Below, piece after piece: positions 29,709 through 52,467 of a stretch of 64,000 bases of DNA. The stretch is from Hyunsoonleella aquatilis (GTDB lineage: Bacteria; Bacteroidota; Bacteroidia; Flavobacteriales; Flavobacteriaceae), in contig NZ_JACNMF010000002.1 in NCBI RefSeq assembly GCF_014270105.1, forward strand, positions 682,001 to 746,000. Direction: 5' to 3'. The notes under the pieces are model-generated. The model was not told the origin of the DNA, made no database searches, and saw nothing but the letters and a program-made list of their open reading frames with translations. Both the position numbers and the translations under genes were made by a program. How positions within the stretch are numbered: the first letter of the stretch is position 1; each line of letters starts with the position of its first letter.

Positions 29709-30728
29709 CTATTCCAAAACTGAATAATCCCCAATACTTATACTAGTGAAATCACCATTATATTTCACATGATTCCCGATCATCGCATTGTTCAACTTGG
29801 CATTTTTTATTTCAGAATCGGTCTGAATCAAGCTGTTTTCAATAGTTGAGTTTTCAATAACCGTACCATTTCCGATGGAAACAAAGGGGCCGATAGTGGC
29901 GTTTTTCAACACCACATTTTCACCCACGAAACAAGGCTCAATAATATTGGAATTTTCGAGTTTAGCAGAAGATGCTACTAATTGCTCTTCACCATCCGAC
30001 TTCAAAAAGCCCAACATGCGCTGATTGGTTTCTATGGTGATGGCCTTATTCCCGCAATCCATCCATTCATCCACAGTTCCTGTTTTAAATACCTTCCCAT
30101 CTACCATCATACGCTTGATGCCATCGTTAATTTGGTATTCACCACCATTCATAACGTTCTCATCCAGAATTTCTTGCAGCTTATCCTTTAAAACTGCAAC
30201 ATCCTTGAAATAGTAAATCCCAATCACGGCTTGGTCTGATACGAAATTCTCTGGTTTTTCAACAAGTTCGATAATTTCATTATTTTCATTCAATTTTACA
30301 ACACCGTATGCTTCAGGATTATCCACTTGTTTTGTCCAAATCACACTATCAGCATTTGGGTCTAAATCGAACTCAGCCCGTATTAGCGTATCAGCATAAG
30401 CAATTACAGCCGCCCCAGACAATGAAGGTTTGGCACACATAATGGCATGTCCCGTTCCTAAAGGTTTATCTTGGCGGTAAATGGAGGCCTTGGCTCCTAA
30501 ACTTTTGGCCAAATCTTCCAAACTTGATACCACATCATCCCCAAACCATGCCGGGTCGCCTAAAACAAAGGCTATCTCATCAATTGGTTGCTTCAACACT
30601 TTAGCAATATCTTTTACCAAACGGTGTACAATAGGTTGTCCGGCAACCGGGATTAATGGCTTTGGTACAGTTAAACTGTGTGGGCGCAATCGAGAACCTC
30701 GACCGGCCATTGGGACTATTATTTTCAT
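29709..30728 (-). CDS. Sugar-1-phosphate nucleotidyltransferase with C-terminal beta-helix
   Basis: The N-terminal nucleotidyltransferase signature is MAGRGSRLRPHSLTVPKPLIPVAGQP, followed by PLGTGHAIMCAKPSLSGAAVIAYADTL and the VEKPENF loop. The C-terminus (residues about 255-330) has left-handed beta-helix hexapeptides (NSNIIEPCFVGENVVLKNATIGPFVSIGNGTVIENS), as in GlmU or GlgC-type enzymes. The sugar (glucose, mannose or GlcNAc 1-phosphate) cannot be decided. Context: first gene of the TPR-DUF4292-EnvC run, downstream of flippase and dut, so cell-envelope precursor supply is likely. Confidence 0.88.
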   Translation of the reverse strand: MKIIVPMAGRGSRLRPHSLTVPKPLIPVAGQPIVHRLVKDIAKVLKQPIDEIAFVLGDPAWFGDDVVSSLEDLAKSLGAKASIYRQDKPLGTGHAIMCAKPSLSGAAVIAYADTLIRAEFDLDPNADSVIWTKQVDNPEAYGVVKLNENNEIIELVEKPENFVSDQAVIGIYYFKDVAVLKDKLQEILDENVMNGGEYQINDGIKRMMVDGKVFKTGTVDEWMDCGNKAITIETNQRMLGFLKSDGEEQLVASSAKLENSNIIEPCFVGENVVLKNATIGPFVSIGNGTVIENSTIENSLIQTDSEIKNAKLNNAMIGNHVKYNGDFTSISIGDYSVLE

Positions 30729-30732
30729 ATTA

Positions 30733-30754
30733 ATGCCCGCGGAAGCGGGTATCT
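30733..30754 (+). repeat. Palindromic repeat, GCAGGAATCTC family (copy a)
   Basis: ATGCCCGC-GGAA-GCGGGTAT forms an 8-bp stem with one G-T pair, followed by CTCTTTTT. It has the same design and tail as copy b, 40 bp further right, and both point toward the GIY-YIG gene. Confidence 0.7.
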
Positions 30755-30772
30755 CTTTTTAGGTTAAACACT

Positions 30773-30795
30773 ATTCCAGCCAAAGCAGGAATCTC
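30773..30795 (+). repeat. Left inverted repeat of the GIY-YIG unit (copy b)
   Basis: ATTCCAGCCAAAGCAGG then AATCTC; the stem ATTCCxGC / GCxGGAAT has one mismatch. It sits directly after the GIY-YIG stop codon. It matches the reverse complement of the repeat at 31130-31152 at 20 of 23 positions by eye. Confidence 0.75.
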
Positions 30796-31116
30796 TTATT
30801 TATATCGTTTTAATTTATTAAAATCTAAATTCCAATTCATACTTAAATCCATCCAACTCGGATTCATATCCTCAATCAACTCAATTTTCCAATCCCTTTT
30901 CCATTTTTTGAACTGCCGTTCTCGCTTTGCTGACTCTTCTCCAGATTCAAATCCTTCAAAATAAATCAGCTTATCACAATTATATCTCGCAGTGAACGAT
31001 TTGGGAAAAACTTTTAATTTATGCTCTTTTACTCTTTCTTCGATATTATCAGTTACACCTATATACAAAACTCCATTTTTCCTATTTGCCATTATGTAGA
31101 CATACCAAAGTTTCAT
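30796..31116 (-). CDS. Single-domain GIY-YIG endonuclease (UPF0213/YhbQ-like)
   Basis: I take the ATG at 31116 (MKLWYVYIMANRKNGVLYIG). The longer frame, starting MKAGISESVE, reads through the flanking palindrome. GIY-YIG hallmarks: WYVYIM, then LYIGVTDN, Arg in IEERVKEHK, and the E-containing helix SAKRERQFKKWKRDWKIELIE followed by NPSWMDL. These fit a complete 106-aa catalytic domain with no extra DNA-binding module. Small GIY-YIG proteins of this class have no settled function. The flanking inverted repeats make a repeat-processing or mobilising role a hypothesis worth testing. Confidence 0.9.
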   Translation of the reverse strand: MKLWYVYIMANRKNGVLYIGVTDNIEERVKEHKLKVFPKSFTARYNCDKLIYFEGFESGEESAKRERQFKKWKRDWKIELIEDMNPSWMDLSMNWNLDFNKLKRYK

Positions 31117-31129
31117 TTCAACCGATTCT

Positions 31130-31152
31130 GAGATTCCTGCTTTCACAGGAAT
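31130..31152 (-). repeat. Right inverted repeat of the GIY-YIG unit (copy c)
   Basis: On the minus strand ATTCCTGTGAAAGCAGG then AATCTC; stem ATTCCTG / CAGGAAT with a 6-nt loop. It begins 3 nt after the dut stop codon and ends 13 nt before the GIY-YIG start. It is the inverted partner of 30773-30795. Confidence 0.75.
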
Positions 31153-31155
31153 TTG

Positions 31156-31590
31156 TTACTTGGTTCCTGTGCTACCAAATCCTCCTTCACCTCTATCAGT
31201 TGACGACAATTCTTCTACCTGAACCCATTCAGCACGTTCGTGCTTGGCAATAATCAGTTGCGCAATACGCTCACCATTGTGGATGGTAAATTCTTCATTG
31301 GAAAGGTTGACTAAAATAACGCCTATTTCACCTCTGTAATCTGCATCTATCGTGCCAGGGGCGTTCAGTACTGTAATTCCCTTCTTAGCGGCTAACCCGC
31401 TTCTAGGGCGCACTTGGGCTTCTAATCCCACTGGGAGTTCAATAAACAGTCCGGTTCCCACAATACTGCGCTCTAAAGGTTTTAACACTCTTGATGCTGA
31501 AATGTTAGCCCTTAAATCCATTCCCGCGGAAGCGATGGTTTCATAATGGGGTAAATCATGGGTAGATTTATTGATGATTTTTATTTTCAT
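31156..31590 (-). CDS. dut: dUTP diphosphatase
   Basis: It hydrolyses dUTP to dUMP, preventing uracil incorporation and feeding dTMP synthesis. Trimeric dUTPase motifs: [41 protein letters not shown], and the C-terminal arm [10 protein letters not shown]. At 144 aa it is full length. The start codon follows directly on the flippase stop, so the two are translationally linked. A family palindrome follows the stop. Confidence 0.97.
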
Positions 31591-33655: not shown

Positions 33656-33677
33656 AATAAGCTTGTCATTAATGAGG

Positions 33678-33695
33678 TTCCTGCGTTCGCAGGAA
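33678..33695 (-). repeat. Palindromic repeat, GCAGGAATCTC family (copy d)
   Basis: Stem TTCCTGCG / CGCAGGAA, perfect 8 bp around a 2-nt loop, followed on the minus strand by CCTCA. It starts 4 nt after the atpG stop, and TAACAAATTCCTG is shared with copy c after dut. Confidence 0.7.
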
Positions 33696-33699
33696 TTTG

Positions 33700-48531: not shown

Positions 48532-48545
48532 CTCAATTTATTGAG

Positions 48546-48565
48546 ATTCCTGTTTTCACAGGAAT
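48546..48565 (-). repeat. Palindromic repeat, GCAGGAATCTC family (copy e)
   Basis: Stem ATTCCTGT / ACAGGAAT with loop TTTC, followed on the minus strand by CTCA. It starts 1 nt after the stop codon of the DUF4254 gene and ends 14 nt before the GT9 start. Confidence 0.7.
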
Positions 48566-52432: not shown

Positions 52433-52447
52433 TAGTATTGTTTTTAG

Positions 52448-52467
52448 ATTCCCACCGTGGCAGGAAT
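52448..52467 (-). repeat. Palindromic repeat, GCAGGAATCTC family (copy f, decayed)
   Basis: On the minus strand ATTCCTGCCACGGTGGGAAT then CT; the outer arms ATTCC/GGAAT pair, and two inner positions are mismatched. It lies upstream of purD, unlike the copies that follow stop codons. Confidence 0.55.

Follow-up and report, generated by a model that had tools for sequence, protein, structure and literature searches.

In RAYT (TnpA-REP) systems, a small transposase gene with flanking REPs accompanies single REPs and REP pairs dispersed through the genome. The locus described here raises the question of whether a GIY-YIG nuclease can stand where a RAYT would stand, as an initial annotation of this DNA had proposed. 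Our analysis started from the window, a 64,000-nucleotide stretch of the 3.93 Mb genome of Hyunsoonleella aquatilis (G000 in genome comparisons), and followed the gene and its repeats through related genomes, named loci and plasmids.

The window locus and its repeats

The gene is flanked by a nucleotidyltransferase (NTase) gene (29709-30728, minus strand) and a dUTPase gene (31156-31590, minus strand). The unit and its dispersed relatives in the window are:

30733..30755, plus strand: palindromic repeat ATGCCCGCGGAAGCGGGTATCTC, the unit's left end as common to other genera
30773-30795, plus strand: palindromic repeat ATTCCAGCCAAAGCAGGAATCTC, an extra left-side copy, AATCTC facing the gene
30796..31116, minus strand: nuclease gene of 106 aa with the W.R.WK motif (Pfam GIY-YIG, E = 1.2e-17)
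31130..31152, minus strand: palindromic repeat ATTCCTGTGAAAGCAGGAATCTC, the unit's right end, AATCTC facing the gene
33674..33696, minus strand: dispersed single palindrome, motif match
48543..48565, minus strand: dispersed single palindrome, motif match
52445..52467, minus strand: dispersed palindrome, more diverged (5 mismatches), whose end on the other strand is GGAATGAC, the GTC-tag form

The initial annotation described a 106-aa gene between inward-facing 23-bp repeats, and this arrangement is present, with the 30773 and 31130 repeats identical at 20/23 positions. As the ends of the unit the pair holds only in part, since the left end common to other genera is the 30733 palindrome and the 30773 repeat is an additional copy. 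The 30733 palindrome (TGCC[CT]GC..GC[AG]GGTA[TC]CT) has the same position in L110, L040, L041, L043-L046, L049, L053 and L054, and the 30773 copy is absent from L040, L044, L045, L049, L053 and L111. As single-stranded DNA the 30733 repeat folds into a hairpin of -7.2 kcal/mol, the 30773 repeat into one of -4.2 kcal/mol (z -3.2) and the 31130 repeat into one of -6.0 kcal/mol (z -3.6). The 30773 and 31130 repeats each have one imperfect stem position (A-A and T-G), so that the window copy falls below our strict palindrome threshold and is scored as not flanked in the locus counts below.

Isolated copies of the palindrome elsewhere in the window, also part of that annotation, were recovered at 33674 and 48543 and, in diverged form, at 52445. 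In all, the window holds seven consensus matches at ≤5 mismatches, one of which falls in the dUTPase gene. In three Markov shuffles of the window there were none at ≤5 mismatches and 0, 0 and 2 at ≤6. The match within the dUTPase coding sequence (31520-31542, 5 mismatches) recurs at the same place in L041, L043 and L053 and is probably a conserved dUTPase protein motif rather than a repeat. A motif count over the whole genome, which the initial annotation had suggested, returned 41 matches at ≤3 mismatches (a few being both strands of one palindrome) and 0 for a reversed control pattern. Three pairs face inward at spacings of 48, 87 and 94 bp and resemble REPIN dimers.

The same genome has further genes of this kind. 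A second W.R.WK gene (L005, G000:C15:661881-662156) is bordered by GTC-tagged repeats whose stems differ, a 64-bp direct repeat lies on each side, and palindromes with stems similar to those of L005 are dispersed in the genome (L030, L032, L038). Two paralogues without W.R.WK (L006 and L007; C1:632866 and C15:364179) have no adjoining palindrome and form a natural negative control.

Palindromes and copy number in other genomes

We scored strong palindromes in equal 145-bp intervals at both gene ends under one tag rule, with control intervals taken from the loci. The family set comprised 72 loci, 4 from the window's own genome, with L070 and L052 being the same locus and counted once; another 29 loci (L040-L068) were complemented by 40 taken in order of score with two passed over, which biases the set toward close relatives. 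The named set was the best 80 of 574 confirmed loci, sharing one locus with the family set (L062 = L232), and the plasmid set was 14 of 32 matches.

Palindromes adjoin most of these genes. They were found upstream in 51/72 family loci, downstream in 44/72, on both sides in 33 and on either side in 62, against 22/615 control intervals. For the best 80 of 574 named loci the numbers were 54, 54, 44 and 64, against 169/1422. The initial annotation mentioned GIY-YIG genes near similar palindromes in other bacteria; the association is widespread, with 62/72 family loci and 64/80 named loci (best 80 of 574). An inward-facing GTC tag was present upstream in 19/72 family loci, downstream in 21/72, on both sides in 12 and on either in 28 (controls 6/615, either orientation), and in the best 80 of 574 named loci in 39, 37, 27 and 49 respectively (controls 13/1422, either orientation). 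Nine of the 14 plasmid loci are GTC-tagged inward on both sides, including the close relatives L143 and L149, the locus of S. meliloti Ak57 pSymB and that of A. lipoferum 4B, which lies between sufB and sufC; one further locus has palindromes without the tag. No palindrome at either end was found in 10/72 family, 16/80 named (best 80 of 574) and 4/14 plasmid loci. Among the named loci listed, those tagged on both sides under a looser tag rule include many Pseudomonadota together with records titled Deltaproteobacteria (L159, L174), Desulfobacteraceae (L193), Ignavibacteriaceae (L166) and Moraniibacteriota (L218).

Flanking follows one subclade: in the family set, 61/64 genes with the W.R.WK motif are flanked vs 1/8 without it (Fisher p 6e-7), the one being a truncated copy. 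Stems vary from locus to locus, and the left and right arms agree inside one locus. Over the 72 loci with both ends (32 family and 40 named), left/right arm identity was 0.884 vs 0.695 when permuted, the largest of 2000 permutations reaching 0.733. The GTC tag is on the outer side only in 106 of the 198 nearest palindromes, on the inner side only in 22, on both in 4 and on neither in 66; 71 have a CCA tail.

Repeat number also goes with presence of the gene. The exact pattern TTCCYGCNNNNGCRGGAATC, which covers one stem family only, occurs in 149/299 family genomes, and a control pattern in none. In counts that are uncorrected for kinship and include the copies flanking the gene, at least 10 repeats were found in 38/143 family genomes with the gene (E≤1e-14) vs 4/156 without it (odds ratio 13.8, p 6e-10). 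No repeat of this one pattern occurs in 39 of the 143 gene-bearing family genomes. A phylum sample of 395 genomes, searched with a 49-row profile at E≤1e-10, contained any copy in 74/395; under the same counting, at least 10 copies were present in 28/216 genomes with the gene vs 0/179 without it, and at least 5 in 35/216 vs 2/179 (G386, 9 copies; G482, 8). Outside the family, the corresponding figures for at least 10 copies were 25/184 vs 0/170. Equal repeat numbers in genomes lacking the gene, named by the initial annotation as an outcome that would count against its idea, were thus not found in either sample (38/143 vs 4/156; 28/216 vs 0/179).

That repeat-bearing relatives would always carry the gene is true of nearly all genomes with at least 10 repeats (38/42 in the family, 28/28 in the phylum sample) and fails for single ones, such as G097 and G096. 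The family genomes with at least 5 copies and no gene at E≤1e-14 are G027, G034, G096, G097, G107, G131, G265 and G282. A profile search finds the gene in G131 (E 3e-16); G096 (41 repeats) and G265 (18) have distant gene matches only, and no gene at E≤1e-3 was found in G097 (15 repeats) or G282 (9).

We found Y1 transposases (PF01797) in 117/299 family genomes; the window's own genome gives three weak matches. At least 10 copies of the repeat were found in 17/67 genomes with the gene and no Y1, 21/76 with both, 1/41 with Y1 only and 3/115 with neither. In a regression on repeat number the gene had t 8.9 and Y1 had t 0.04, and a Y1 transposase as driver was rejected, as it has no effect once the nuclease gene is in the regression.

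Empty sites, filled sites and possible scars

The unit occupies different sites in different genomes. In G255, perfect 29-bp direct repeats border it where an E2 lipoyl-acyltransferase gene starts, and the congener G028 has one 29-bp copy (one base different) in an unbroken E2 start, MSKFELKMPKMGESITEG, and no palindrome there. On comparison of the two sequences, G255 vs G028 is a clean empty/filled site with a 29-bp target duplication, and it is the only clean case; the comparison of empty and filled sites that the initial annotation had suggested thus gave one such pair. A start within the unit (MKDKEIPAFAGSYELKMPKMGESITEG) is possible for the E2 frame of G255, and the repeat would then be translated; G310 has a decayed unit at the same E2 place. 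In two genera a repeat lies within the E2 reading frame near the N-terminus, reading EIPAFAGS (L050) and VPAFAGN (L052, by eye), so that the protein has apparently taken up an insertion.

Long direct repeats are infrequent. Those of at least 29 bp at repeat boundaries occur in 3/90 distinct loci, and the ones at L005 and L052 look like remnants of tandem units. Flanking direct repeats of at least 12 bp occur in 8/91 entries (permuted fraction 0.0033); of these eight, four are off the repeat boundary and two are the same locus.

Other sites show derivatives or one hairpin in the place of the unit. S. meliloti Ak57 has, beside an intact unit, a second one that retains both ends and has lost most of its gene. 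Sinorhizobium K101 has a symmetric hairpin, with CTC on one side, where Ak57 has the deleted unit. Among 11 Sphingobium plasmid records that have both fnrL and a regulator gene as flanks, 7 cover the unit lying between them. TYG73 has a one-base gap in the gene of its unit. At the unit's place, TYG64 has one symmetric hairpin of the form GTC[stem]GAC, with the loop found in the right-hand repeat of TYG73; the hairpin is worn in TYG74, and TYG72 and TYG65 have other sequence there. One dimer is present in MM15 and TYG73 and absent from TYG46, with no clean boundary; at the place of a dimer in MM15, TYG73 has exactly the symmetric form. A search of six Sphingobium plasmids with one stem and restricted tails gave 28 distinct matches, of which 2 are symmetric, those in TYG64 and TYG73. 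Dispersed head-to-head dimers occur in Sphingobium 50-kb stretches and, as the three inward pairs, in the window's own genome. Places with one hairpin and no unit fit either an insertion target or a deletion scar; we take the symmetric forms to be probable deletion scars. The dimers and the unit have their inner end sequence in common and leave the same symmetric form, which links units and dimers. At a Shinella site, records are apparently both filled and unfilled, and in Azospirillum the intergenic DNA between sufB and sufC is replaced, with no clean split.

The window copy has a longer history. Among 12 genomes of the genus, the dut/NTase site holds the unit in 3 (G000, G308, G302), a palindrome-bearing remnant in G305, and is empty in 8. 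Ten other genera, represented by 10/29 family loci (L040-L068), have the same site filled, three of these loci carrying stops in the gene, and a recent insertion in the window is ruled out on this ground. The dN/dS of the window gene against nine relatives was 0.06-0.11 in the 7/9 where dS could be estimated. As the same site is filled in other genera and dN/dS is this low, we conclude from sequence comparison that the window locus is old and was inherited vertically, its repeats being worn and its gene constrained. RAYTs are likewise often vertically inherited. In the window's genus the intergenic DNA at the dut/NTase site is replaced and not simply split, and no footprint is readable at the empty sites of the eight genus members, which are too diverged. 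A related GIY-YIG copy of 75% DNA identity (L132, G306:C37:17227-17574) lies elsewhere in a congener whose dut/NTase site is empty.

The enzyme, CGTC REPs and a proposed mechanism

The protein retains the GIY-YIG catalytic residues. In an alignment of 49 rows, made of the window protein and 48 of 72 stop-free frames from named loci, Y7, Y18, G20, R28, H32, E66 and W76 are invariant; we take R28 and E66 to be the catalytic Arg and Glu of GIY-YIG nucleases. For a structure model of the window protein (pLDDT 91, pTM 0.82), UPF0213 is the nearest fold (1zg2, E 9e-4), Slx1-Slx4 follows (E 0.02) and UvrC ranks lower. Phage homing-endonuclease families match weakly. UPF0213 (PDB 1zg2, 1ywl), the UvrC N-domain and Slx1 are nearest by sequence profile and fold, with weak sequence similarity. 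Slx1 is a structure-specific nuclease, and the modeled Slx1-like fold would suit a hairpin substrate. We know of no report of UPF0213 genes between REPs. The catalytic domain, with its conserved Y, YIG, R and E, is common to I-TevI-type homing endonucleases and free-standing phage GIY-YIG enzymes. The proteins here differ from GIY-YIG homing endonucleases in having no attached DNA-binding domain (~95-120 aa in all), palindromic ends and dispersed non-autonomous copies.

In its architecture the unit resembles RAYT/GTAG REP and REPIN systems, with a small gene between inward copies of a palindrome of its own family that is also dispersed as singles and inverted pairs, the arrangement of a REPtron. 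The enzyme is a GIY-YIG protein rather than an HUH Y1 transposase and the tag is GTC rather than GTAG; classification as a RAYT was rejected, there being no HUH Y1 transposase between the repeats. The deleted, end-keeping derivative beside an intact unit is reminiscent of MITEs, although the ends of the unit are self-complementary hairpins and not plain terminal inverted repeats. An empty site and a target-site duplication, as expected of transposable elements in general, are found in the one case of G255 vs G028.

The tagged repeats recall the CGTC-REP superfamily. As described by Di Nocera et al. 2013 (PMC3733652), these REPs have a CGTC tag (often TGTC or CCTC), a CCA tail, 8-9 bp stems with AT almost always in the first two positions and loops of 4-5, and form mostly head-to-head dimers. 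Their host species, A. lipoferum and S. meliloti included, span 5 phyla, and the superfamily takes in Neisseria dRS3 and some Rickettsia RPE. That paper states that they "apparently lack a dedicated transposase", that no tyrosine transposase gene is flanked by CGTC repeats and that other transposases are associated fortuitously. The tagged repeats at GIY-YIG genes look like CGTC REPs in their 8-9 bp AT-ended stems, loops of 4-5, CGTC or TGTC tag, CCA tail and dimers, and A. lipoferum and S. meliloti are common to the species of PMC3733652 and to our GIY-YIG units. An outer GTC tag is carried by 110/198 nearest palindromes, in relatives of the window copy. The window repeats themselves have the stem and loop of a CGTC REP and differ in that a CTC tail is kept and the GTC tag is absent. 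Where PMC3733652 reports no dedicated transposase, a GIY-YIG gene lies here between the repeats, and its protein is a strong candidate for the enzyme, missing so far, by which CGTC REPs would spread. No published link of GIY-YIG genes with REP-type repeats was found in a search of titles, abstract openings and passages, among them passages of PMC12306157 and PMC10928387, that took in few subscription papers and no bioRxiv preprints. The plasmid search gave two matches in Neisseria gonorrhoeae; the gene survey covered genomes other than those of Rickettsia and Wolbachia, both bearers of CGTC repeats.

We consider it probable that the palindrome/GIY-YIG/palindrome unit is an autonomous REPtron-like mobile element and that the dispersed palindromes, whether single or in head-to-head dimers, derive from it as non-autonomous copies. 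A GIY-YIG nuclease in the position of a RAYT, as the initial annotation had it, gains support from the association across genera and phyla, the matched ends, the copy numbers and the one empty/filled site. In the mechanism that we propose, the terminal palindromes would fold to hairpins in single-stranded DNA, on the lagging strand or extruded, and the small Slx1-like enzyme would recognize hairpin and tag and nick at the outer tag. Nicks in the target staggered by tens of bases would then leave a long target-site duplication after repair. Cutting by the GIY-YIG protein, the cut position, the single-stranded substrate and the order of steps are what we infer for this scheme.

Several other explanations deserve consideration. 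An enzyme of homing type might cut palindromes already in place, with the unit copied in by gene conversion and the repeats being targets that spread otherwise. The GIY-YIG fold is a homing-endonuclease domain with weak matches to phage homing-endonuclease families, and the single hairpins at unit-free places in Sphingobium TYG64/TYG74 and Sinorhizobium K101 could be such targets. We nevertheless find this unlikely: the empty site of G028 has no such repeat, G255 has a target duplication, the hairpin loop in TYG64 and TYG73 is exactly that of the right-hand repeat, as expected of a deletion between arms, and homing alone leaves dimers and repeat numbers unexplained. It is more doubtful still that the unit and its repeats are moved in trans by a Y1 or other transposase, the nuclease gene being cargo. 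The 117/299 family genomes with Y1 genes and the three weak matches in the window's genome would allow for it, but repeat number does not follow Y1 in a model that includes the nuclease, flanking is confined to the W.R.WK subclade and the window nuclease is under purifying selection, and PMC3733652 describes the association of other transposases with CGTC repeats as fortuitous, having found no tyrosine transposase gene flanked by them.

Constraint on the gene could be read as a service to the host, with a domesticated nuclease that resolves or trims palindromes without spreading them and came to lie among them by descent. The dut/NTase site shared with ten other genera, the dN/dS of 0.06-0.11 and the Slx1-like fold agree with such a role, yet it seems very improbable, as the gene goes with more repeats and not fewer, and differing sites, matched ends, the internally deleted unit and the insertion in the E2 gene are left unexplained. 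Ordinary hairpins around a small gene, such as terminators or regulatory stems, are common enough near genes (169/1422 control intervals in the named set), but the strong excess over controls and the dispersed copies make this reading scarcely tenable; terminators in particular are ruled out by the conserved outer tag and tail, the dispersed copies and the covarying stems of the two ends.

If the preferred reading as a REPtron-like element is true, the REP lifestyle of small gene, hairpin ends and dispersed dimers has two origins, each with a nuclease unrelated to the other, a function can be given to many genes annotated only as 'GIY-YIG nuclease family protein', and a compact hairpin-guided nuclease joins those under study. 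A candidate enzyme of ~100 residues with matched ends makes the question of the CGTC-REP transposase testable at the bench. More tentatively, we suggest an undescribed class of prokaryotic transposable elements, made of hairpin-ended units with a stand-alone GIY-YIG nuclease and long target duplications, which might reach from Bacteroidota and Alpha-/Gammaproteobacteria to candidate phyla and be the source of CGTC REPs generally, possibly with Neisseria dRS3 and Rickettsia RPE.

Some loci of the survey stand apart. On a Planktothrix agardhii plasmid (L140, 2001-2285), a palindrome-free GIY-YIG gene has a type IIL restriction enzyme on one side and DISARM drmA on the other. A padloc search of the analysis returned weak partial matches at most. 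GIY-YIG genes can be clustered, with four in ~6 kb of G087 (C1:1187326-1193549; L097, L069, L051) and further clusters in G157, G261 and G220, and G174, with 16 matches, is one of several many-copy genomes. Besides the usual palindromes, a subclade with the motif ..HP.TFSARYNLDKL.. (L057, L065, L066, L068, L076, L077, L092) has a long inverted repeat in common, which is rich in AT, lies ~33-50 bp upstream of the gene, is often centered on CTATAG and has stems of 17-24 bp in six of these loci.
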